Virus record (IMG/VR): IMGVR_UViG_3300034198_010091
Coordinates: 1 to 55,460 of that record
Strand: one strand, 5' to 3'
DNA length: 55,460 nucleotides
Source of the DNA: a virus
Shown here: positions 6,411 through 46,185 of the stretch, piece by piece
How the letters are laid out: each line of letters starts with the position of its first letter
Position numbering within the stretch: position 1 is the first letter of the stretch
The notes under the pieces: generated by a model
Told to the model about the DNA's origin: nothing
Databases searched by the model: none
The model's input: the letters and a program-made list of their open reading frames with translations, nothing else
Position numbers and translations under genes: made by a program

Positions 6411-6417
6411 TATTTAC
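6411..6417 (-). promoter_or_regulatory. Late promoter box GTAAATA
   Basis: GTAAATA, 5-nt gap, ATG at 6405. The box contains the stop codon of the terminase C-part gene. Confidence 0.65.
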
Positions 6418-9257
6418 CATTGCATCACTCTCTCCATAGCATCATATCTATCCTGACTATAAGATCTAGATGGGTCCACATAAGGCATTGCTCCATTCAG
6501 AGGCATCCAGCCTTCAGCAAATAATCCAGCCATTTCATCATCAGCTTCTCCAAATGCACCAAAAGCCATTGGAGATAGATTAGAATTCTCGATTTTATCA
6601 ACTTGTTCATTTGTATAGATAGATGTTGGATTTTCAAACATCTTTATACCGTAATTATATGGAGTTATCTTAGCGGGTTTACCATAATCATCTTCTTCAT
6701 CGATTTCGAAATACATTTGTGTGATTTCTCGATGTAAAATCATCAAAGCCCAAACAAATGCCATAACACGGTCATCATGTTCACCACCTTTAGCTTTCCA
6801 TGTAGCGTTTGGATATCTAATAAATGTTTTGAATTCATTCAAGGTATGAATTGATCTGAATGTTACGTTTCTGATTTCATTAATGAAATATCTCTGATTT
6901 AAAATAGCAGCATGTTTAGTATTGGTATGAGATAATACTCCAAACTGTTGATTTTTGTGTGCTTGTTTCGCACCCCATGACACAACCTTCTCATAGGCAA
7001 AATCCATTGCTAATCTATCACAAACTTGACCACCTTGGTTATTTCTTTCAATTAAAACTAATGGACTTCCCCAATTTAGGAGAATATCATGTAATTTATT
7101 AGAGAATTCTGCTGGGGCTATAGTATTACTATGATATTCAGCAACTTGTCTGATATCTTTGAGATCAGTAATGTCTAGCATTTGAATTACAGAGGCATCT
7201 CCACCAACTCCTTCAGATACATCGACACCCGCCACGTATAATCTTGATGGATCTGGATCTTCCCAAATTTTATAATGACCATCATCTAGTAAATGCTTGG
7301 GTTCCGAACAGTTTTTCTTCAATTCATCGAATAATTCAACATCGATAGCTGAAGTTCCATCATCTGCGAAGTGACATTCATATTCTTGGGCGAATGCTTC
7401 ATATGAACCCAGTTTGGCTATTTCTTTGCGCTTCCACTCCTCATCACGACCGGGAATTTCTGTCCACTGAACTTCTTCTGGGTGAAACTCATTCCACTCA
7501 GGAGTTCCCTCTTTTAATGCCGCCGAATAAAAAGTATGAAATATATTATTTTTACCCTTCGGGGTTGATGTTATTAGGATTTTTGATGTTTTGGCTCTGG
7601 AAATCGTTGGTATAACCGAACGAACAAAGTCTTCCACAATACTCTGAGGTTCCAAATACGAAAATTCATCCAATAATAAACATTGATGACTGACAAAACC
7701 ATTGGTGATATATTTAAAATTTTCAGATGCTACAATATCATACACTTCTGTCATCCCCCCATCCTCAATTTTCACAACTTCTTCGTATCCACTCTCAGTT
7801 TTTAACTGATCTCCAACTTGTAACCCCGATACTGGTATTTGTACATCGTTATATGTGAAAAAAATATGATCTTTGGTTATGCTGACGGATCTTTTAGTAG
7901 TAAAAACTTCCACACATTCTCGAACTCCGTTACTGATTACATTTTTAAACTTTTTGAACCCATCATCGGTCAATATTTCAACCTTATTATTATGAATCGG
8001 GCTGTAATCGATATGCATTATTTCTGGATATGACTCCGTATACATCTTCTTTAAATTCAGAAGCTTTTCCTTGGCCCTTTTCTTTTTCTGCGCCACGGTA
8101 TCCCAAATTATAAGCAATTTATATCCCTTATCTGTCAAATAATCATATTTTACTATATCTTTATCGATATGTTTTTGAAACAGGTGATGTTTTTCATTTA
8201 TTTCGACTATAAGTTTCTCCCCCACCAAAGCATCACAGACAAATGGGCCGATTCTTTTAGAATATTCTATGTCTTCATCCAGTATTTCGAATCGAACCTT
8301 TAAAAGCTCTAATATTTTTAACTCATTTTTACCAATATTTGTTTTATATGTATTATTGGAATTGTTCGACAACCTTCTGTCTATATGTTCGAAATATCTA
8401 TTTGAACATCGAGTCCCACAGGTTTCGGGATACTTTAATAAATAATCATTAAATACCACTTTTTTCGTATTACAAACTACACAGTGAGGAGATTCTTGTA
8501 AATTATTCACGAACCTATATGCGGCAGCTAATTTGGATTCTTTTCCATCCCAACCTATGTGATCAGTATAATTTCGAAAACTATTCAATGTTTGACGGGT
8601 CTGCTCTTCCTTATTAAGTCTTATTTCAAACATTAGAATATTGTCTCGTATCAATCTACATTTATCAATGTCTGACATAAGAATGAATTCCTCAATTATA
8701 TTAAACCTATCCAAACATTGCACATATGCGAACTTCGGCTGAAATAATTTTCCGTTTTTGTTTATTATTGCTTGTTTTGTTTTTGAAAAATTTAAATAAA
8801 ATATTCTCGTTCTGATAGATGGATTGAATTCATCGAGATACTTTGTATCGTTCATCAAATATTCTAAAATATATGGATGTTTTTTGACATTGCTTATGGC
8901 TGATGCCGATTTAAAAAATGTTCTTAGCTGCTCATCATTCAACTTACTCAAATCAAACTGTTCATATAAAGTATCACTATATCCGAGTTCAAATGATAGA
9001 TATCTATAATTTCTCCCCTTTTCAGAGTTGCTGGGTATTTCTCGAATATCATTGAAATAGTGATATGCCCGTTGACCCATCTCTTTTCTCAAAAAATGAT
9101 CATCTAAATATGATGTCTTTTCTTTCAATTCATCATACAAATGTGGATATTTTTTAAATAATGTATATATACTATTTGATTTTTTGCTATCCTTGTATCG
9201 GTCAAACACAAAGTCCAGATCTATAGAGTTGCTCAATCGTCGTTTCATATATAGCAT
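6414..9257 (-). CDS. terL (C-part): Vsr-like endonuclease fused to split-intein C-part and terminase large subunit C-part
   Basis: 947 aa. Residues 1 to about 415 are a homing endonuclease: a zinc cluster (HCVVCN ... CGTRC), then a Vsr/EDxHD-like core with CDALVGEKLIVEINEKHH and YKLLIIWD. Residues about 424-525 are an intein C-part with block B (SITKDH), block F (EVYDIVASENF) and end VSHQ. From Cys526 the terminase resumes with Walker B (LLLDEFS), the ITSTPKG coupling motif, and a RuvC-like nuclease (VAGVDVSEG, LIERNNQGG, HDDRVMAFVW). Trans-splicing with the product of 9202-10899 would yield full gp17, the motor that packages DNA. The start is ATG 9257 or ATG 9248; both lie inside the upstream IntN coding sequence in another frame. 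An internal ATG at 8018 could yield IntC-terminase without the endonuclease. Confidence 0.92.
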   Translation of the reverse strand: MLYMKRRLSNSIDLDFVFDRYKDSKKSNSIYTLFKKYPHLYDELKEKTSYLDDHFLRKEMGQRAYHYFNDIREIPSNSEKGRNYRYLSFELGYSDTLYEQFDLSKLNDEQLRTFFKSASAISNVKKHPYILEYLMNDTKYLDEFNPSIRTRIFYLNFSKTKQAIINKNGKLFQPKFAYVQCLDRFNIIEEFILMSDIDKCRLIRDNILMFEIRLNKEEQTRQTLNSFRNYTDHIGWDGKESKLAAAYRFVNNLQESPHCVVCNTKKVVFNDYLLKYPETCGTRCSNRYFEHIDRRLSNNSNNTYKTNIGKNELKILELLKVRFEILDEDIEYSKRIGPFVCDALVGEKLIVEINEKHHLFQKHIDKDIVKYDYLTDKGYKLLIIWDTVAQKKKRAKEKLLNLKKMYTESYPEIMHIDYSPIHNNKVEILTDDGFKKFKNVISNGVRECVEVFTTKRSVSITKDHIFFTYNDVQIPVSGLQVGDQLKTESGYEEVVKIEDGGMTEVYDIVASENFKYITNGFVSHQCLLLDEFSYLEPQSIVEDFVRSVIPTISRAKTSKILITSTPKGKNNIFHTFYSAALKEGTPEWNEFHPEEVQWTEIPGRDEEWKRKEIAKLGSYEAFAQEYECHFADDGTSAIDVELFDELKKNCSEPKHLLDDGHYKIWEDPDPSRLYVAGVDVSEGVGGDASVIQMLDITDLKDIRQVAEYHSNTIAPAEFSNKLHDILLNWGSPLVLIERNNQGGQVCDRLAMDFAYEKVVSWGAKQAHKNQQFGVLSHTNTKHAAILNQRYFINEIRNVTFRSIHTLNEFKTFIRYPNATWKAKGGEHDDRVMAFVWALMILHREITQMYFEIDEEDDYGKPAKITPYNYGIKMFENPTSIYTNEQVDKIENSNLSPMAFGAFGEADDEMAGLFAEGWMPLNGAMPYVDPSRSYSQDRYDAMERVMQW
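7683..7988 (-). other. Split intein C-part (IntC) in terminase
   Basis: About 102 aa immediately before Cys526 of the 6414-9257 ORF. It carries block B with the TxxH-type SITKDH, block F EVYDI, and the end TNGFVSHQ. It resembles the Ace Lake TerL split intein (KILSPNGF there, VEILTDDGF here). The terminal residue is Gln rather than Asn; the +1 residue is Cys. Confidence 0.88.
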
Positions 9258-10899
9258 TATTTAGTCTGACTGTGACATTTGTGTTAGCGTTAACGCAATT
9301 GATAGTTTGTCCCCGCGCTGCTGAACCAGTCGTGGTGGAAATACCTATAAGACTACCGTTAGCAAATTCTGAACTTTCTTGCCCCCAAGTTACAACAGCG
9401 GGTTTTAACCATATGGGAAGTTCTTGATAAGCTAATTTGACCCGTTTAAAGATCATCTTCGCAGTATCTTCTTTGTTTGCCACGATTACAGTATTTTTAT
9501 AATCATGGAAACACGTATACCATAGTGCCAAGATCGTTAACACCGTGGTATTGTGGGTTGGAATATTTGTCCTTCCACATAAAAATAGACTATCAGGTGA
9601 ATCTACGGTAATGCACCTCACTGGAACCGACTCAACTTCTTTTATCTCTTTGATATAATGCCATTGATTCCTTTTATTTGATTCTGGAGTTGATATTTCA
9701 TTAATTATAATTCTATCCTTTTTGAAAGGTAGTTTACAAACATATTCTCTTGGTTTAAACTCTAATACTCCACATTCTTTACACTCTATACCATATAATG
9801 TCGGTATTTTAGTTTTGAATGTTGTTTTATACCCCAAACTCTCAATCAATTCTTTAACTTGATGGCATAATTGAATATTGGTGTTGTAAAAATTACAATT
9901 TCCTGATTTATCAACATAACCATCAGAATCTATCAAACCCATCAATAATTCCAATCTTTGATCTCTAGACCCCAATAGGTATTCTGGTGGTATATGTTTA
10001 TTTCCAATCAAATTAGACTGTCTGAGTTCTTTATGTAAAGAAGTCTTATATTTCTCATTCCGATCATTTTTTCCTAGATTAATAGAATAAATATTTCGAT
10101 TTTTGTGATATTGGATATTGATACCGTATCGATCTTTATATTTTTGCAAATTATTAACAGTTTCCTTTAGATCTCTAGTCCCTGATGTGATTCTCGACCC
10201 GTCTGTTGCCCCGTCACCCAACCACATTCCAAGAATATACGGATCTATAATGTAATCCTTTTCACTATTTTCCAACCCTTGCACGCAAGAAGGAATTCTA
10301 TAAAAAGGTTCTCCTGCTTTTGTCGTGTGATCACCCAACATCTCCTTAGTAGTTTTTACACTACCTTCTTTATTTTTTCGATTTCTGTCATTTTTCGATT
10401 GAACGAACCAATTATGATCAGCATCCGCCACAATTTCTTCCCCATTATCAAATATAACAGAATAACATTTCCTATCATAGAGAATTTCATGAGCCTTTAC
10501 GACACGACAAATTTTTCCATCTATACCATACAATTCATCCCCATCCTTTAATTCACCTATGGTTGTCCATCCATTTGGGGTATTAATTGGAGTATCCAAG
10601 GCTAATGCTTTTCCACTTTGACGACTTGACAATACGATATTGAATCGATGGTCTTTAAAAGCTTTTAATAACCTTAACTGATAGGGTAATAAAGGAATCA
10701 ACACTTTACCCAAATCCGGTTCAATTATGTAAAAGTAATTCTGTGCAAAATAAACAAGATCGTTCTTACACTTCTCAATCTCCAAAGCCATCTCTGGAGT
10801 GTATTCAAACTTAGCATCTTGGGATGGTAAATTTGGATTACCTAAATACATCTCCTTCTTGGATAATTTGGGTTCTTTAATTTTAGATAGTCTAGGCAT
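9202..10899 (-). CDS. terL (N-part): Terminase large subunit N-part with a cis intein and a split-intein N-part
   Basis: 565 aa. Residues 1-97 are the gp17 N-terminus up to the Walker A (SSRQSGK). Residues 98-450 are a full intein. Residues 451-534 continue the ATPase (TTVLTILALWYTC, then VIVANKEDTAKMIF, then GSAARGQTIN). Residues 535-565 are a short intein N-part starting CVNANTNVTV. N-exteins (181 aa) plus the C-extein in the next ORF (422 aa) give 603 aa, against 610 aa for T4 gp17. The gene has a TTAAATA box 6 nt before its ATG in a divergent promoter region. Its last 56 nt overlap the next ORF in another frame. Confidence 0.95.
   Translation of the reverse strand: MPRLSKIKEPKLSKKEMYLGNPNLPSQDAKFEYTPEMALEIEKCKNDLVYFAQNYFYIIEPDLGKVLIPLLPYQLRLLKAFKDHRFNIVLSSRQSGKALALDTPINTPNGWTTIGELKDGDELYGIDGKICRVVKAHEILYDRKCYSVIFDNGEEIVADADHNWFVQSKNDRNRKNKEGSVKTTKEMLGDHTTKAGEPFYRIPSCVQGLENSEKDYIIDPYILGMWLGDGATDGSRITSGTRDLKETVNNLQKYKDRYGINIQYHKNRNIYSINLGKNDRNEKYKTSLHKELRQSNLIGNKHIPPEYLLGSRDQRLELLMGLIDSDGYVDKSGNCNFYNTNIQLCHQVKELIESLGYKTTFKTKIPTLYGIECKECGVLEFKPREYVCKLPFKKDRIIINEISTPESNKRNQWHYIKEIKEVESVPVRCITVDSPDSLFLCGRTNIPTHNTTVLTILALWYTCFHDYKNTVIVANKEDTAKMIFKRVKLAYQELPIWLKPAVVTWGQESSEFANGSLIGISTTTGSAARGQTINCVNANTNVTVRLNNAIYETTIEQLYRSGLCV
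9205..9297 (-). other. Split intein N-part (IntN, 31 aa) in terminase
   Basis: Begins with Cys535 right after GQTIN and ends at a stop after IEQLYRSGLCV. Only block A is present, so the split lies between blocks A and B. This very early split is the arrangement known for the AceL-TerL intein, whose IntN is 25 aa. Confidence 0.85.
9258..9264 (-). promoter_or_regulatory. Late promoter box CTAAATA inside the IntN coding sequence
   Basis: CTAAATA directly abuts ATG 9257 and lies 9 nt from ATG 9248, the two candidate starts of the endonuclease-IntC-terminase ORF. It is encoded by Leu-Asn-Asn codons of the terminase IntN. Spacing is less regular than at other genes. Confidence 0.5.
9550..10608 (-). 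other. Class-3-like LAGLIDADG intein inside terminase Walker A
   Basis: 353 aa between SGK and TTVL. It starts with Ala instead of Cys/Ser and ends PTHN, with Thr at +1. Block B has ADADHNWFV (Trp two after the His), block F has VRCITV (Cys at position 4), and block G has Thr before HN: the W-C-T trio of class 3 inteins. Two LAGLIDADG motifs lie in the middle (YILGMWLGDG and LLMGLIDSDG), so it encodes its own homing endonuclease. Removal restores GKTT. Confidence 0.93.
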
Positions 10900-10905
10900 A
10901 TTACA

Positions 10906-10912
10906 TATTTAA
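10906..10912 (-). promoter_or_regulatory. Late promoter box TTAAATA for terminase N-part
   Basis: TTAAATA, 6-nt gap, ATG at 10899, in a 27-nt divergent intergenic region. Confidence 0.75.
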
Positions 10913-10914
10913 GA

Positions 10915-10921
10915 CTAAATA
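10915..10921 (+). promoter_or_regulatory. Late promoter box CTAAATA, divergent partner
   Basis: CTAAATA, 5-nt gap, ATG at 10927. The two boxes face opposite ways and are 2 nt apart. Confidence 0.8.
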
Positions 10922-10926
10922 ACTAT

Positions 10927-11910
10927 ATGAAACAAAAAGACTCTGTATCTTTAGGTGATATTTATGGAAAAATGTTGAATTCTGTTCACACAATCAAGGA
11001 ATCCAAGACTCCGAAAACCTTCGATGGTGAATTCCGTAATAAGAAACAAAAAGATGGTCCCGAATCTGCTGATGGATACAATAAAGCAGAGAATAAAGCA
11101 GCTGAGGAGGATGAGGAAAACGATGATGTGTCCAAATATCTACCCAAATCTAAGATCTCGAAGAGTGCGGATAAATTGAAAGAAAAATTAAAGAATCCCA
11201 ATATTTCAGCTAAAGATAAATCGTCAATAAAAAAATCTTTAAAGAATATAGAAAGTGGATTAGAAGCCGCTGAATCAGAAGAAATTCAAGAATCTAAAAA
11301 AATTGCAACCGACAGGCTAAATAAGCATATGAGCAAATCAGCTTTTGATAAATTGTTTAATAAGGTTCTTAAAGAAAATTTCGGTCAACCTAACGAAGGA
11401 GATGATCTCGATGCCCTTGGTCTTGATGATGCAACACCAGATTCCGATATGGAAGATGACTTTGGTGGTGAAGAAGACGACTTTGGTGGTGAAGAAGATT
11501 CTGTTACCTTTACATTAGATCGCGCAATGGCACAAAGCCTAATCGATGTTCTTCAAGGTGCTCTTGGAGATGAAGAAGGTGGTGATGAATTCGGTGGTGA
11601 AGATGATGATCTTGACTTCGGTGGTGAAGATGATGATATGGATTTCGGTGGTGAAGATGATGATATGGATTTCGAAGAAGACGAAGAAACCCAAGGCACT
11701 AAGCCTGCTCCAGATAAGAAAGCAGCATTCCAAGCTAAATCTAATAAGGTTGGTGGAAAAGCTAACCCAAAGGGTGGTAATAAAGCCAAGACAGATGTAA
11801 CTGATGACACTAAGACTACTCATAGTGCTCCTCCAATCACAGCCCTTATGGGTCACAACAATCAGGTTCCTAAATCAACCCTAAAGGCTAAACAAGATTA
11901 CTTCCGCTAA
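10927..11910 (+). CDS. Acidic repeat protein, possible prohead core or virion component
   Basis: 327 aa, highly charged. The N-third is Lys/Glu rich. Near residue 140 there is an amphipathic segment FDKLFNKVLKENF. Residues about 170-255 are Asp/Glu/Gly repeats built on DDFGGEE and FGGEDDDMD. The C-terminus is basic (Lys/Gly/Asn rich) and ends LKAKQDYFR. Such strongly acidic, low-complexity composition recalls scaffold or internal head proteins, and the gene faces the terminase and precedes the neck gene. It has a late box and a strong terminator after it. I do not recognise a defined family. Confidence 0.6.
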   Translation: MKQKDSVSLGDIYGKMLNSVHTIKESKTPKTFDGEFRNKKQKDGPESADGYNKAENKAAEEDEENDDVSKYLPKSKISKSADKLKEKLKNPNISAKDKSSIKKSLKNIESGLEAAESEEIQESKKIATDRLNKHMSKSAFDKLFNKVLKENFGQPNEGDDLDALGLDDATPDSDMEDDFGGEEDDFGGEEDSVTFTLDRAMAQSLIDVLQGALGDEEGGDEFGGEDDDLDFGGEDDDMDFGGEDDDMDFEEDEETQGTKPAPDKKAAFQAKSNKVGGKANPKGGNKAKTDVTDDTKTTHSAPPITALMGHNNQVPKSTLKAKQDYFR

Positions 11911-11940
11911 TCTTAAATTATAAAAATCAACAAACAATAG

Positions 11941-11965
11941 AGCCTGCTTAATCGCAGGCTTTTTT
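11941..11965 (+). terminator. Rho-independent terminator
   Basis: Stem AGCCTGC / GCAGGCT with a 6-nt loop (TTAATC) and a run of five T, about 30 nt after the acidic protein gene. It is followed directly by the next late box. Confidence 0.9.
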
Positions 11966-11966
11966 G

Positions 11967-11973
11967 TTAAATA
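11967..11973 (+). promoter_or_regulatory. Late promoter box TTAAATA
   Basis: TTAAATA, 5-nt gap, ATG at 11979, right after the terminator T-run. Confidence 0.75.
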
Positions 11974-11978
11974 TTATT

Positions 11979-12356
11979 ATGAATAATTCCGATATGAAAA
12001 AATTGGGGATGATATATGAAGGACACTTCTACCATGATATGGATCATGACATGAAAAACCAATATTATCAGACCATAATAGAAGTGATTAAGCCATTTTC
12101 GGAACACTGTCATGAAATAGCGGTTAAGCTTGATAATTTAACCCATGAGATTGATAATTTATTCTATACTGAGGAGTGGAAAAATTTAGAGCAAATGTTT
12201 GAAGCATATACGGAAGATTCGAGGGTAGAGAGACGGGATTTTATAGGTTATATACTAGACGCTAAAAGTAATTTGACTTCGGCAGTACACAAACTGGAAA
12301 ACTCTAATATTCAGTCGGAACTCTCAGATGTTTTAACAGGGCAGAAGATACAATAA
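11979..12356 (+). CDS. Late protein of unknown function
   Basis: 125 aa from ATG 11979 (MNNSDMKKLGMIYEGHFYHD). A TTG further upstream lies inside the late box and terminator and is rejected. The protein is mostly helical, with His/Asp/Met-rich ends and a long central region (HEIAVKLDNLTHEIDNLFY) that looks like a coiled coil. Its stop overlaps the next start (TAATG). The neighbourhood suggests head or neck assembly. Not recognised. Confidence 0.65.
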   Translation: MNNSDMKKLGMIYEGHFYHDMDHDMKNQYYQTIIEVIKPFSEHCHEIAVKLDNLTHEIDNLFYTEEWKNLEQMFEAYTEDSRVERRDFIGYILDAKSNLTSAVHKLENSNIQSELSDVLTGQKIQ

Positions 12357-35749: not shown

Positions 35750-37096
35750 ATGCCAGATATCGACATTTCAAAAATAAAAACCCGCAGGGGAACAGATAAT
35801 CAAAGAAAAAACATAATCTTTGATCAAGGGGAAATTGTATCTACCGTAGATACTAAGAGAGTTTTCTTAGGAACAGGTGTTCTAAGTGGTGGTGTTGTGG
35901 TCGGTAACAAAATTCATTCATCAATTACAAATTTCACATCTCTGTCTAATGTAATTGCTGAACCGGGAGATTTAGTGTATTGTAATAATACATTTTACCA
36001 ACTAACAGCTTACGGGTATAACAATATCTCGAATTGGTCCTTGGTTAATACTAAGGTCAACTCCTCATATTTCGATTATGGAAATAATAACACCTTAACT
36101 CTAAAACAAAGTTCGATTCCTGTTAATTTCTTAACTCCATCGACTATAACCAATGGATTAAAAGTTGAAAGTAATCTTTTACAATTGGATTATAGTCCAA
36201 CCTTCTTCACTTTATCAGGAAATTCCTTAATTCCAAAGATTCAAGGTCTTAGTGCTCTACAAATACACCCAAACACATTTTATAAAGGTATTAGTGGTGG
36301 TGGATACGATAAAATTGGTCTAAATGTTGATCCAAATTACTTCTATTTTAATGGTAATGTTCTCAGTTTGTCTGCTACACCAAGCAACCAAGTATACTTC
36401 ACAGATTTAAGTTCATCTTGGTTCGGTGATGGATTAATTTATGATTTCGGTGGAAATGTAATAAAAACAACTTTAGTTAGTGTTGATGAAGTAACTCTAA
36501 CTAAGAGTTTAACTGGTGGTGTATCTCTGAAATCGTCCCTTATTGGTTCTGGATTGGTTCTAAACAGCGGAACCCTCTCATCCAACATAACAGGTGTCAG
36601 TAATAACACTCTAACTAGAAATTTCAGTGGAGGTGTAGCTCTCAATACGGCTATGTTTGGTAGTGGATTGGTATATGACTCAGTGACCACATCATTATCT
36701 ACCGTTTTGACAAATGTAGATAATGTATCATTAACAGCTACTAATAATGGAGTAATTTCTATCCCAAGAAACGCTTTATCGGGAACAAATAATTGGCCAC
36801 AAATCACTGTAGATCCATATGGTAGGGTTACAAACAATAAATCATCCATTTTGGATGTTTTGACCGGGAATGCTGCTTTAAGTTCTTATAACAATTCAAA
36901 TAGTCTATCAGCTATATTCAATGGTGATTCAATGGGTCTATCTGGACTACAAATAACTAAGTTTACTGCTTTATCTTCCGATGGAACTACCATTATCAAT
37001 CTTTCATCTGCTGGATTTATAACTTTTGAAGGAAATACAACAACGAGAAACGGTTCAACTGTAGGACGATTCGCAATCCCAATTTTTAGATACTAA
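35750..37096 (+). CDS. Tail fibre protein, paralogue A
   Basis: 448 aa, starting 1 nt after the previous stop (TAATATG). The N-terminus has the phage fibre attachment signature RRGTDNQRKNIIFDQGEI followed by TVDTKRVFLGTG. The remainder is a repetitive shaft with phrases such as GSGLVLNSGTLSSNITGVS and GSGLVYDSVTTSLSTVLT, and a short C-terminal tip (GSTVGRFAIPIFRY). It shares its N-terminal domain with the next gene, which suggests duplication. Confidence 0.68.
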   Translation: MPDIDISKIKTRRGTDNQRKNIIFDQGEIVSTVDTKRVFLGTGVLSGGVVVGNKIHSSITNFTSLSNVIAEPGDLVYCNNTFYQLTAYGYNNISNWSLVNTKVNSSYFDYGNNNTLTLKQSSIPVNFLTPSTITNGLKVESNLLQLDYSPTFFTLSGNSLIPKIQGLSALQIHPNTFYKGISGGGYDKIGLNVDPNYFYFNGNVLSLSATPSNQVYFTDLSSSWFGDGLIYDFGGNVIKTTLVSVDEVTLTKSLTGGVSLKSSLIGSGLVLNSGTLSSNITGVSNNTLTRNFSGGVALNTAMFGSGLVYDSVTTSLSTVLTNVDNVSLTATNNGVISIPRNALSGTNNWPQITVDPYGRVTNNKSSILDVLTGNAALSSYNNSNSLSAIFNGDSMGLSGLQITKFTALSSDGTTIINLSSAGFITFEGNTTTRNGSTVGRFAIPIFRY

Positions 37097-37099
37097 TAT

Positions 37100-38029
37100 A
37101 TGGAAATTTTTCAAAATACACTATTACAATTGATAATCAGACAAGGATTAAACTCCGATAGAAAGAAAATAGTCTTAAAGTCTGGTGAATTGGGATATAC
37201 TACCGATACTGAACGTCTTTTCATCGGTAATGGCTCTTTGAGTGGTGGTCAGGTTGTTGGTAATCTGTTTAAGGGTATATCAACTGATATAACCACATTA
37301 TCTCCATGTGAAGTTGGGGATTTTGCTTTCGATAGTGATAAAAACAAATTATATAGACTAAAAATCAACAATGGTAGTAATTTATCTGATTGGGAACTTA
37401 TCGGTGGTGTATATACATCTGGAGATAATTACATCCTAATATCCACAGACAATAAATTAACATTAAATCCTCTATCTGCTGGTTCCGTATCAACAAATCT
37501 TTTAAATTCTCCTTTAGGACTTAGTGGTGGAAAAATAACCCTAAATCCTCTATCTGCTGGTTATGTGTCATCAGATTTAGTCGAATCTCCTCTATATGTC
37601 GAAGATGGTAGGATCAAATTCGGTAATGTTGCTATCAATGATGTATCTACCAACACATTAACGGTTAGTAGTGGTCTTACGATGGTTGCTAATGGAGTTC
37701 CTGCTACAGGAACAGCGGTGAATCCATTATCTACCAATATATACATCGAATCTAATCAGATATATGCTAAGTATAATGGCATAGCTCTATCCGCTGAATA
37801 TTCTAAGAACATTACTAGTGTATCTAGACTAAGTGCTGGTCATTATAGGTTTTTTTATTTGAATAAACCTACGTCCTTTATGATTCCAACAGTCCAATTA
37901 TTTGGAAATAGTTACTGGGATTATCAAATTAGAACTATTAGTATCAATTTGTCTTCTTGTGATGTCAAGATATTAAGTGGTGGGAGTGTTCCAAGTGATG
38001 CAATCTTCACTCTCTTGATTAATTATTAA
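37100..38029 (+). CDS. Tail fibre protein, paralogue B
   Basis: 309 aa, 3 nt after the preceding gene. N-terminus IRQGLNSDRKKIVLKSGELG, then TDTERLFIGNGSLSGGQVVG, matches paralogue A in order and spacing. The shaft contains repeated LNPLSAGSVSTNLLNSPLGL / LNPLSAGYVSSDLVESPLYV units. The C-terminal 80 residues (HYRFFYLNKPTSFMIPT onwards) form a different tip from paralogue A, so the two could bind different ligands. Confidence 0.68.
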   Translation: MEIFQNTLLQLIIRQGLNSDRKKIVLKSGELGYTTDTERLFIGNGSLSGGQVVGNLFKGISTDITTLSPCEVGDFAFDSDKNKLYRLKINNGSNLSDWELIGGVYTSGDNYILISTDNKLTLNPLSAGSVSTNLLNSPLGLSGGKITLNPLSAGYVSSDLVESPLYVEDGRIKFGNVAINDVSTNTLTVSSGLTMVANGVPATGTAVNPLSTNIYIESNQIYAKYNGIALSAEYSKNITSVSRLSAGHYRFFYLNKPTSFMIPTVQLFGNSYWDYQIRTISINLSSCDVKILSGGSVPSDAIFTLLINY

Positions 38030-38030
38030 T

Positions 38031-38843
38031 ATGTATCCAGCCGATGTAAATATTCCTATAAATGCGAAATATTTTGGGTTTATAGATAGAAAAAATCCCT
38101 ATAATCCACATTGGGACATAACTTGGAGTTTTACCTTTACTTTATCTGGATCTAATCATGCAATCTGCACATTCTTAACGAATAATCCCAATTTATCTGC
38201 TGGTATTCCCGGACATTACCTTGGTTTTCAAGGTTCTTATAATTATCTAAGAGACGAAAATAGTAATATACTATTATCTGAATTAGGTGATGAGCTTTTT
38301 GCTGAGAATGAAGCTCTAACAGGATATGATATGAGTGGTGTCATTGGGATAGCTCTTGATTCAACTGGATATTTTGCGCTTTCAAATGAAACCAATCCCG
38401 GTGTTGGTATACAAAGTGTTAAACCTAATAGCTTAATCATCAGAGATTCTAGTTCTAAAGTGTTGGTGAATGAATCTTTATCGTCTTTAGATTCTAATTT
38501 TCAATTAACCACGCAACTACCCCAAACAATTCGTATAAGATGGGCTAATGGTGGTAGAAAGTTATCAGTCGATTATAAATCGTTATCATCTGATTATAAA
38601 ACTCTAAAAAGTATAAATTTATCGTTCTTCGATCCTTACGATCATGATGCTCTTTATCCAAGTTTCTCTTTTTGTTCACCACTTTCTGGATCACAGACCC
38701 CATCAACTCTAAAATTGAAGAATTTCCACACTCAAGGTAGTTTAGAGGAAGCGTCTCATGAAATATTAGACTACACACCAATCATCAAATCAAATAAGAC
38801 TGATTATACCACTATATCTGGAATAACAGCTATACCTATCTGA
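38031..38843 (+). CDS. Lectin-like (concanavalin-fold) adhesin
   Basis: 270 aa, 1 nt after the preceding gene. The sequence follows a legume-lectin-like sandwich: NPHWDITWSFTFTLSGSNHA, GVIGIALDSTGYFALSNE, PQTIRIRWANGGRKLSVDY, then PSFSFCSPLSG and STLKLKNFHTQGS. It may recognise glycans on the host or on other virion proteins. It stands directly before the mucin-like gene in the same operon. Confidence 0.62.
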   Translation: MYPADVNIPINAKYFGFIDRKNPYNPHWDITWSFTFTLSGSNHAICTFLTNNPNLSAGIPGHYLGFQGSYNYLRDENSNILLSELGDELFAENEALTGYDMSGVIGIALDSTGYFALSNETNPGVGIQSVKPNSLIIRDSSSKVLVNESLSSLDSNFQLTTQLPQTIRIRWANGGRKLSVDYKSLSSDYKTLKSINLSFFDPYDHDALYPSFSFCSPLSGSQTPSTLKLKNFHTQGSLEEASHEILDYTPIIKSNKTDYTTISGITAIPI

Positions 38844-38847
38844 TCAA

Positions 38848-39366
38848 ATGCCTGAAGAAACTTCAACAACTACTACGGAGACTTCAACGACTACTCCTAG
38901 TCCATCATCGACTAGTACAACTACGTCTACGACAACCCCCACAACAACCCCTGATCCGGGTGGTAGCACAACACCCGATCCTAATGGTAGCACTACGCTA
39001 CCACCTGATCCTCCTTATACAACTAGCACAACCACTCCTAGCCCATCATCAACTACGAGTAGCACAACTACGTCTACAACTACTACGACGACCACAGAAG
39101 GTCCTTGTGTGCCTTGTTTACCACCCCCCGATGGAATACCAGATCCGCCACCCATACCTGAGTTAACTACTAGGACGGTTAACCCTATTGTTATCACTAT
39201 AACAACACCAAAACCTATCAATCCTCTTACAAATATTATCTTAACAACTGTAAGACCGACCACTACAACATCGACAACACCTTCGACAACATTTACATCT
39301 TCCTCAACAACTCTAGATGTGACTCGAAAAAATTGTGTCGATGGTTGCAATAAATTAGGATTTTGA
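38848..39366 (+). CDS. Mucin-like Thr/Ser/Pro-rich virion protein
   Basis: 172 aa. About 60 residues are Thr and about 20 Ser, in tracts such as TSTTTSTTTPTTTP, separated by Pro/Asp/Gly linkers. This is the composition of densely O-glycosylated mucin domains. A short central segment (CVPCLPPPDGIPDPPPIP) and the extreme C-terminus (CVDGCNKLGF) each carry two cysteines, which may cross-link or anchor the protein. It has no signal peptide. It lies between the lectin-like gene and a glycosyltransferase with GalNAc-transferase-like motifs, so the likely role is a glycosylated fibre tip or shaft. The reverse strand is also open here, which is a by-product of the ACN/TCN repeats. Confidence 0.7.
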   Translation: MPEETSTTTTETSTTTPSPSSTSTTTSTTTPTTTPDPGGSTTPDPNGSTTLPPDPPYTTSTTTPSPSSTTSSTTTSTTTTTTTEGPCVPCLPPPDGIPDPPPIPELTTRTVNPIVITITTPKPINPLTNIILTTVRPTTTTSTTPSTTFTSSSTTLDVTRKNCVDGCNKLGF

Positions 39367-39378
39367 TAATTATTCTCA

Positions 39379-40161
39379 ATGAGAAAATTAACCATTGGTA
39401 TGGCTACCCACGATGATTACGATGGGGTGTATTTCACAATACAAAATATTAGATTATGTCATCCAGAAGTTATGGATGATATTGAATTTGTTATTATCGA
39501 CAACAATCCTTCGGGACCTCATGGTGCTTGCGTAAGAAAATTTATCGAATGGGTTAAAGAACCTGTTCAGTATCTTCCATTCACCAAATATAAATCTACA
39601 ACCATCAAAAATAAAGTATTCGAACTAGCTGATACACCCTATGTAATGTGTATCGATAGTCATGTTCTTCTAGAACCCGGATCTATAAAGAAACTTATAG
39701 ATTTTTATGACTTTGGTAAAGATTTCGGTAATCTTTTACAGGGTCCTTTAGTGTATGACGATCTAATATCCATATCCACTCACTTCGATAATGTTTGGTC
39801 CAACTATATGTGGGGCCAATGGCAAACAGATAATCGTGGAAAGGATAAAAATGGTGAACCTTTTGAAATACCGTCCCAAGGTTGTGGATTATTCACCTGT
39901 AGAAAGGATTCTTGGGTTGGATTCAACAAAGAATTTCGAGGATTTGGTGGAGAAGAAGGATATATTCACGAAAAATTCAGACAAAAAGGTAAAAAAACCT
40001 TATGTCTACCATTTTTACGTTGGACTCATCGTTTTGATCGACCAAATGGTGTGACTTACCCTAACGATCTCAAAGAAAGATACAAAAACTACTTAATTGG
40101 GTTCACTGAGCTTGGATTAGATACCAAGGAATTGAATGAACATTTCAAAGATATAATTTGA
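39379..40161 (+). CDS. GT-A glycosyltransferase resembling polypeptide GalNAc-transferases
   Basis: 260 aa. N-terminal MRKLTIGMATHDDYDGVYFT and FVIIDNNPSGPHG form the nucleotide-sugar fold. The metal motif is CIDSHVLLEPG near residue 93 (a DxH rather than the usual DxD). The acceptor region QGCGLFTCRKDSWVGF, then FRGFGGEEGYIHEKFRQKG and a histidine in RWTHRF, follow the order seen in GalNAc-T enzymes (GG..., wGgEn.e...r...G, H). In the same operon as the mucin-like gene, it is the natural candidate to add sugars to its Thr/Ser tracts. Sugar specificity is inference. Confidence 0.75.
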   Translation: MRKLTIGMATHDDYDGVYFTIQNIRLCHPEVMDDIEFVIIDNNPSGPHGACVRKFIEWVKEPVQYLPFTKYKSTTIKNKVFELADTPYVMCIDSHVLLEPGSIKKLIDFYDFGKDFGNLLQGPLVYDDLISISTHFDNVWSNYMWGQWQTDNRGKDKNGEPFEIPSQGCGLFTCRKDSWVGFNKEFRGFGGEEGYIHEKFRQKGKKTLCLPFLRWTHRFDRPNGVTYPNDLKERYKNYLIGFTELGLDTKELNEHFKDII

Positions 40162-45096: not shown

Positions 45097-45382
45097 ACTT
45101 ATATATTTCTAATTTAATATATTCCATAACTTCTGGAGAAACTGCTATCATCCAAACAAAAGGCAATTTTTCATTACACCAAACACCCACATGCATATCC
45201 CCACCCGATATATTTTGACTGTCCAACTTCCACACATAATTATTTTCTATATCTGAAAAATGTTCGATCCAAAATTCCGGTATCGGTAATGTATCCAAAT
45301 GAACTGTTAATATTGATGGTTTTCCTTTTTCTTTGGCATCTTTAAAAATGCGTTCAACGTAATTTGTAGGGTCTTCTCTCAT
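45086..45382 (-). CDS. Protein of unknown function
   Basis: 98 aa. MREDPTNYVERIFKDAKEKG, then beta strands with several Trp (PEFWIEHFSDIENNYVWKL, GVWCNEKLPFVWMIAVSPE). Start ATG overlaps the stop of the endonuclease gene (TAATG), so that mobile gene sits between this gene and the clamp gene. Not recognised. Confidence 0.6.
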   Translation of the reverse strand: MREDPTNYVERIFKDAKEKGKPSILTVHLDTLPIPEFWIEHFSDIENNYVWKLDSQNISGGDMHVGVWCNEKLPFVWMIAVSPEVMEYIKLEIYKYDK

Positions 45383-46185
45383 TATTTATTCGATCCTTTT
45401 AATTTGGATTGTCTTATCTTTTCTTTGGTTTCTTCTGAAAGAATTACACCAAGTCTAGGGCTAGGTTTTCCTCTTCTGGATTCACTCATTTTCATCTTTG
45501 TTTCTTCTGAATGTTTGCGACCTTTGAGATTATTAGACTTTCCTTTTTTCGCTTCACTCATTTTCATCTTTGCTTCTTCCGTGTGCTTCTTTCCTAATTT
45601 AGCGTTTCTCATTTTTTCTATAGTTTCTGGTGAATTTTTTCTACCTAACCCACACTGGCTAATTTTTTGTTTATGTTCCTCTGATATGGTCTTTCCGACT
45701 CTAAGTGTTCTCAACATATCCTGTATGTGCTTGGGTCGAGGGACTCTCATCTTATCTATACGTTCTTTTGAGAGTGGTCCCCGAATTTGTTTAGCTCTCG
45801 CTATCCTCAATTTAGCTCTATGTTCTTCAGAAAATGGTTTTTTAGGAACCCCCGCACCATCACCCGAATGTTTTTGGATATTATAACCTATATCTTTGTT
45901 GGCGGAGTTGTATTTTTTTATATAAAAAGTCTCCAATTCCAAAAGTTCTATATTATTTTTTGATTTGTCAAAATTCTCAAAAATTTCCAATATTTCAACA
46001 TCAAAAGAATTCCAACCATGTTTTATGATAGCATTTTCTAAATACCATCTTCCCTTGGTATTATTCTCTCGATACCTATGTTGATTAAGTCTTTTATGTA
46101 AGTTTATAGATTTACCTATATAAATCTTACCATTGTTTTTACATGTTAGTTTATAAATTCCTGCTTCCTTCGGATAAGTTTCCAT
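45382..46185 (-). CDS. GIY-YIG homing endonuclease with NUMOD3 repeats
   Basis: 267 aa. The catalytic core is at the N-terminus (AGIYKLTCKNNGKIYIGKS, then RLNQHR, then the Glu in LLELETFYIKKYN and the closing YNIQKHSGDG). From residue 110 on there are at least six NUMOD3-type DNA-binding repeats on the theme S.E...K.....GKK (PFSEEHRAKLRIARAK, TISEEHKQKISQCGLGR, KHSEETKMKMSESRRGK). It has its own TTAAATA late box 5 nt before the ATG. It is inserted just downstream of the sliding clamp gene. Confidence 0.95.
   Translation of the reverse strand: METYPKEAGIYKLTCKNNGKIYIGKSINLHKRLNQHRYRENNTKGRWYLENAIIKHGWNSFDVEILEIFENFDKSKNNIELLELETFYIKKYNSANKDIGYNIQKHSGDGAGVPKKPFSEEHRAKLRIARAKQIRGPLSKERIDKMRVPRPKHIQDMLRTLRVGKTISEEHKQKISQCGLGRKNSPETIEKMRNAKLGKKHTEEAKMKMSEAKKGKSNNLKGRKHSEETKMKMSESRRGKPSPRLGVILSEETKEKIRQSKLKGSNK

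Follow-up and report, generated by a model that had tools for sequence, protein, structure and literature searches.

To our knowledge, mucin-type O-glycosylation by GT27-like enzymes, i.e., by polypeptide GalNAc-transferases and their like, is regarded as a eukaryotic trait. Thr-rich mucins along with polypeptide alpha-GlcNAc-transferases (GT60) are found as well in Trypanosoma cruzi, though there too the system is eukaryotic and associated with the secretory pathway. One account states that no GT27 member has ever been met with in bacteria, plants or fungi (PMC6994419). With GalNAc-T2, a GT27 member, the Mn ligands are Asp224, His226 and His359, and Phe361 is needed in peptide recognition, according to the section drawn upon here (PMC4432651). 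Among phages, glycosylation of virion proteins by phage-encoded enzymes is known from mycobacteriophages Che8, Corndog and Myrna (Freeman 2023, as relayed in the cited parts of PMC12619734 and PMC12363180).

The locus considered here lies within a 55,460-nucleotide stretch of viral DNA which was analysed as a whole and is referred to as the window. It probably represents a two-gene, phage-encoded module for mucin-type O-glycosylation, found at the end of a tail-fibre operon. That reading rests on sequence, on fold match, on motif conservation and on genomic coupling; the identity of the acceptor, the sugar, display on the virion and the module's function are what we infer. The likeness to the mycobacteriophages is that of a phage-encoded glycosyltransferase which acts, or in the present phage would act, on virion proteins of the phage itself. 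The difference is in the acceptors, which for the mycobacteriophages are capsid and tail-tube subunits but here would be a Thr-rich protein specific to this purpose, with its gene adjoining that of the enzyme. With T. cruzi GT60 the likeness would be of a poly-Thr acceptor paired with a cognate polypeptide transferase. Phage-encoded virion glycosylation as such is therefore already known, and what seems new is that a GT27-like enzyme should have a mucin-like acceptor of its own, a combination which has a real chance of being more than a further instance of the former. Searches of the open-access literature yielded no account in which a Thr-rich protein of a phage goes together with a polypeptide glycosyltransferase, in keeping with the first-pass annotation, to which no described phage system of this type was known.

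The source phage is a large, T4-like myovirus, with PHROG matches to tail sheath, baseplate wedge, terminase, clamp loader and DnaB helicase, and with Synechococcus phage B23 as the first-listed relative of the window's terminase ATPase ORF (37.5% identity). A run of plus-strand genes closes with two tail-fibre-like genes, of which the first (35750-37096) has a weak Mtd N-terminal domain (PF18454, 20.3 bits, below the cut-off of 26.3) and the second (37100-38029) has a Mtd_N domain at 34.4 bits by that same cut-off. These are followed by a 270-aa tail-cluster protein (38031-38843), by the 172-aa mucin-like, Thr/Ser/Pro-rich protein which is the proposed acceptor (38848-39366), and then by a 260-aa GT-A glycosyltransferase (39379-40161) that starts 12 nt past the stop of the Thr-rich ORF, a spacing which had been noted previously and which is confirmed here. 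The gene found after that reads in the other direction. Folding the intergenic stretch as RNA produced no signal (z -0.26), promoter-like matches showed no excess over shuffles, and terminator-like sites numbered 4 versus 1.9 expected, with none located directly 3' of the glycosyltransferase gene. A 202-kb IMG/VR contig (L001) encodes both an enzyme and a partner that are identical to those of the window. That same phage's 202-kb contig carries as well, at a separate locus (L171, G001:C1:78000-97000, at 6458-12161), an operon of six GT2-type genes plus an FkbM methyltransferase and a DUF1796 protein.

Turning to the enzyme, the motifs that had been claimed for it all are present, i.e., CIDSHV (D93, H95), GCGLF (residues 168-172), GFGGEE (residues 188-193) and WTHRF (H217). 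Across 60 homologues the invariant residues are D93 and H95 of the DxH metal motif (39655-39663; equivalent to Asp224 and His226 of GalNAc-T2), G188, F189, G190, E192 and E193 of the GFGGEE motif (39940-39957), and W215, H217, R218 and F219 of WTHRF (40021-40035), with GCGLF instead being mostly GMGLF. The sole Pfam match of the window's glycosyltransferase is to Glycos_transf_2 (PF00535, 27.3 bits versus a cut-off of 23.3), a family matched by all 60 homologues at E-values up to 1. Matching stretches in IMG/VR numbered 127 with a near query and at least 513 with a distant query, from each of which 80 relatives were taken on, and four relatives of the enzyme are found in bacterial genome contigs. 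Three members of the enzyme family, searched against 50,697 annotated phage records, gave no match, versus 3,215 records matched by the window's terminase in that same collection.

Similarity at the level of sequence profiles is divided between two families. That is, the N-terminal half of the enzyme resembles TarP, a GT2 enzyme (HMM search, E 7.8e-7), whereas the match to GalNAc-T7 of GT27 is non-significant (E 0.083). A query consisting of the C-terminal half returned GalNAc-T7 and nothing else from among 177,635 distinct PDB sequences, also non-significantly (E 0.15), with that alignment being in register for GLGLF on GGLF, GFGGEE on IWGGEN and W-HRF on VGHIY, such that the late His of the phage enzyme aligns with that of GHIY. 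An HMM built from a 19-row subset (A6) returned no GalNAc-transferase.

An AlphaFold (AF2) model built on the 60-homologue alignment, with pLDDT 95.3 and pTM 0.92, replaced an earlier and unusable model that had been built on three near-identical homologues (pLDDT 43.6). All 50 of the PDB matches listed by Foldseek for this model are polypeptide GalNAc-transferases (E 3.5e-13). Of the 50 PDB entries listed with VIA-align, ranks 1 to 29 are GalNAc-transferases, from animals as well as from Toxoplasma (Z 24.5 to 20.4), with GalNAc-T2 giving Z 24.5 at an rmsd of 2.7 over 245 aligned residues. Neither TarP nor a DNA-glucosyltransferase is among the 50 VIA-align matches listed, an absence which excludes nothing. 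Among the next-best folds are the chondroitin polymerase K4CP (Z 19.4), RmlT (18.9) and B4GALNT1 (18.2). K4CP and B4GALNT1 are inverting GT-A enzymes which, like the better matches, involve GalNAc, but they act on saccharide acceptors and have a DxD metal motif, where the phage enzyme has DxH and a putative protein acceptor. Structure prediction set against GT27 and other GT-A families, as the first-pass annotation had recommended, thus places the model nearest to GT27 rather than with ordinary GT2 enzymes. The enzyme is predicted, from this model, to be a soluble GT-A transferase having the architecture and metal triad of a polypeptide GalNAc-transferase.

The likeness to GT27 enzymes such as GalNAc-T2 consists of a GT-A fold over all 260 aa, a metal site of the DxH plus late-His type (D93, H95 and H217, all invariant), a GGE loop and a Thr/Ser/Pro-rich partner. 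In addition, Phe219 is found two residues past His217, just as Phe361 is found two residues past His359 in GalNAc-T2, and may make the same contact with peptide. The differences are that the GT-A domain fills residues 1-260, leaving the enzyme with neither a C-terminal ricin-type lectin domain nor an N-terminal membrane anchor, that the invariant E193 aligns with the Asn of the WGGEN-type loop of GalNAc-T7, and that there is no significant sequence match. Given the missing lectin domain and anchor, Glu193 in place of Asn and the non-significant sequence matches, the enzyme therefore is not counted formally as GT27, nor is its sugar named. Inverting enzymes that carry a GGED-type motif have, at the place equivalent to Glu193, an acid that serves as catalytic base, and it is therefore possible that the reaction of the phage enzyme is an inverting one.

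Pairing of this enzyme with a Thr-rich protein is conserved well above chance. Here an ORF was counted as Thr/Ser-rich if Thr and Ser together made up 50% or more of some 40-aa segment, and ORFs of at least 20% Val were omitted, thereby removing antisense shadows of Thr tracts. From 84 loci, 56 representatives (below 95% identity) were retained, 5 of which have no ORF ending near the glycosyltransferase start. Among the remaining 51, the ORF ending at that start is Thr/Ser-rich in 30, versus 13 of the 639 other ORFs of those loci (Fisher p 9.5e-29, computed without regard to relatedness), and for glycosyltransferases of at least 70% identity the counts are 20 of 23 versus 4 of 330. Counted by locus, 78 of 126 glycosyltransferase loci have a Thr/Ser-rich ORF, versus 3 of 64 control loci around the tail sheath of related phages; the sheath was chosen as control after a GT2 taken from the other operon of the phage had yielded only four loci. 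Comparative genomics thus couples the two genes in the manner that had been suggested from the single sequence.

The same is seen in viral records. Runs of seven Thr are found in 11 of 15 records bearing the enzyme and in 0 of 8 lacking it, with the latter being partial genomes of 51 to 171 kb (p 0.0013, again calculated without regard to relatedness). Within those 11 records, 103 of 104 overlapping seven-Thr sites are on the strand of the glycosyltransferase and precede it by no more than about 5.3 kb, with one site in G002 as the outlier; these distances, like the clade counts below, were tallied by hand from result rows. The four enzyme-bearing records without such a run nevertheless have Thr/Ser-rich ORFs, directly upstream in three (G006, G008 and G011, i.e., loci L078, L039 and L242) and, in G009 (L146), converging on the glycosyltransferase gene from 28 nt away. 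The ORF survey of loci which covered L146 as well as L163 left out L139, which has no glycosyltransferase ORF. In an 81-row tree, a Thr/Ser-rich ORF is found in the loci of 51 of the 70 members of the main clade versus 1 of the 11 of the remaining sister clade, and the coupling therefore is a trait of most though not all of the enzyme family.

That sister clade, with its absence of Thr-rich neighbours, is among the reasons for considering that the enzyme might act elsewhere, either on a host surface glycan, as in seroconversion by TarP or GtrB, or on phage DNA, with the Thr-rich protein then serving as an unmodified, flexible spacer that shares the operon by chance. Consistent with this are membership in PF00535, the resemblance of the N-terminal half to TarP, weak GtrB-like PHROG matches in 14 of 60 family members, and the presence elsewhere in the phage of six more GT2 genes along with one for an FkbM methyltransferase. 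The GT2 enzymes that modify host surface glycans, TarP included, resemble the phage enzyme in that N-terminal half, whereas the full fold is closest to GT27, that is, to enzymes with peptide acceptors. The enzyme gene, moreover, sits within a tail-fibre operon beside its Thr-rich partner, and the coupling persists across differing partners, gene orders and orientations. Action upon some other target we thus consider unlikely.

The partners themselves are varied. The C-terminal tail of the window's Thr-rich protein, CVDGCNKLGF (39334-39363), exemplifies an ending, C-x-x-L-x-[F/Y], which in near relatives is common to 46 of 81 same-strand upstream ORFs, its invariant residues being so partly by construction as rows were picked by regular expression. 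What precedes this tail is unrelated or variable, ranging from nothing up to 1994 aa, and in two loci (L088, L098) tandem Thr-rich genes end with it. L049-L051 have partners with few Thr that retain a CNxLGF-like tail. It may be suggested from these last that what the enzyme glycosylates, though a virion protein, is mainly the conserved C-terminal module, or else a neighbouring fibre protein, rather than the Thr tracts. The virion glycans of mycobacteriophages are likewise reported to sit C-terminally on the subunits of capsid and tail tube (PMC12619734). Among distant relatives, though, the tail is absent while Thr-rich partners still are present (L100, L101, L147, L163), and such a preference for modules over tracts we view as improbable.

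Glycosylation of the Thr tracts, the reading which is preferred here, accommodates partners of quite different build. Those of L076, L100 and L147 consist of Cys-rich modules spaced by poly-Thr, and that of L163 is 249 aa with 54% Thr. In two loci the glycosyltransferase is fused to a methyltransferase, with a Thr-rich protein adjoining, i.e., Methyltransf_24 in L147 (5992-7782, E 2.8e-7) and Methyltransf_23 in L163 (5995-7392, E 3.6e-10); in L100 the methyltransferase match is weak (E 0.0015). On two gammaproteobacterial MAG contigs (L082:4813-7242 and L084:4870-7266), TPR repeats are followed by a glycosyltransferase of this same family. Thr-rich proteins are found also without the enzyme, singly in a 50.8-kb record (L206) and as tandem genes in short contigs (L089, L095). 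A scan for the tail motif gave 13 contigs, 10 of them with the enzyme, of which 9 already had been found by the glycosyltransferase search; the four new contigs consist of one with the enzyme, two without, and one chance match.

Several neighbourhoods are of separate note. In L045 a 351-aa protein, presumably resembling a radical-SAM enzyme, is encoded directly upstream of the glycosyltransferase, with Thr-rich ORFs flanking the pair on both sides. The partners in L054 and L057 are large, Thr-tract proteins with GDSG-type stretches that we take to be reminiscent of trypsin-like proteases. In the clade of L066, L073, L074, L077 and L079, Thr-rich neighbours are absent and a nuclease-like gene, by our assumption resembling Cas4-type nucleases, adjoins instead; the acceptor of this clade may differ.

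The window's Thr-rich protein was described initially as having about 60 Thr and 20 Ser, and by count it has 61 Thr, 21 Ser and in addition 30 Pro, together 112 of 172 residues and arranged in long tracts of these amino acids, as are mucin or PTS domains. The first tract spans residues 5-84 (38860-39099), with 56 Thr plus Ser in residues 1-84 and mixed Thr codons. This composition is retained in a homologue of 52% identity (L003; 134 aa, with 32% T, 12% S and 19% P). Thr codons of the ORF are ACA 24, ACT 22, ACG 10 and ACC 5, a mixture comparable to that of six neighbouring genes (ACA 84, ACT 70, ACC 42, ACG 12), and Tandem Repeats Finder returned, within the ORF, only one 24-nt repeat of 2.1 copies. 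As codons are mixed and there is almost no tandem repetition, selection on protein, rather than slippage of DNA, best explains the tracts; their origin as a single-codon DNA microsatellite is ruled out by the same two results. That the ORF is instead a DNA repeat or assembly error, paired by chance, is highly implausible since, even though ACN-rich DNA also yields long, Val-rich shadow ORFs on the opposite strand (here minus-strand 39015-39395, overlapping the Thr-rich ORF), synonymous codons are mixed, tandem repeat structure is slight, and the same arrangement is found across dozens of independent contigs.

Upstream of the pair, a gene had been proposed in the first-pass annotation to be lectin-like and to form, with the other two, a three-gene system. 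The gene at 38031-38843 is indeed there, and is kept beside the pair in many loci, but its identity as a lectin is less secure. Its protein has no match in Pfam, PHROG or PDB sequences; 1 of its 19 homologues matches Lectin_legB (E 0.0027), such that a legume-lectin-like fold is possible, and a PDB search with the 19 found no lectin. Of the proposed system it is the enzyme and Thr-rich protein that hold together, with the lectin-like gene dispensable to their association, since the enzymes of distant relatives have Thr-rich partners unrelated to this one.

How such a two-gene module might function can be outlined as follows. Most likely the enzyme would be free in the host cytoplasm during infection and would there place a first sugar on many of the Thr and Ser of the upstream-encoded protein, either before or during assembly. 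For this it would draw on a metal ion and on a nucleotide sugar of the host, UDP-HexNAc being a first guess. The conserved, Cys-containing tail would probably anchor the Thr-rich protein or instead recruit the enzyme. Dense sugars would then stiffen the tract, giving rise to an extended, hydrophilic stalk or coat on the particle. The first-pass annotation had placed such a mucin on the tail fibres and proposed camouflage, binding to host lectins or adhesion as roles that it might have. The same phage's operon of six glycosyltransferases and FkbM could lengthen and cap the chains, though nothing ties that operon to the Thr-rich protein.

The presence of this pair in numerous environmental phages suggests that surface proteins coated with sugar are made by phages themselves. 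A broader version stands in our estimation at about an even chance. By this, uncultivated tailed phages would hold self-contained mucin-type O-glycosylation, consisting of a GalNAc-transferase-like enzyme family related by fold to GT27 and serving modular, Thr-rich virion proteins; methyltransferase fusions could cap the sugar, the six-glycosyltransferase operon could extend it, and this prokaryotic branch could be source or sister of the mucin-initiating enzymes of animals. If true, then there would be a route to the origin of GT27-like enzymes, a reason for poly-Thr proteins in many environmental phages, a new means for phage particles to regulate how they adhere or are shielded, and, for glycoprotein production in bacteria, a compact enzyme-acceptor pair that works in the cytoplasm.

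Elsewhere in the window the large terminase is present as two overlapping minus-strand ORFs (6414-9257 and 9202-10899), the upstream of which has LAGLIDADG/Hom_end homing-endonuclease matches alongside those to terminase. This combination of matches suggests, from sequence, an intein or split-intein arrangement. A GIY-YIG homing endonuclease carrying NUMOD3 motifs is encoded as well, also on the minus strand, at 45382-46185.
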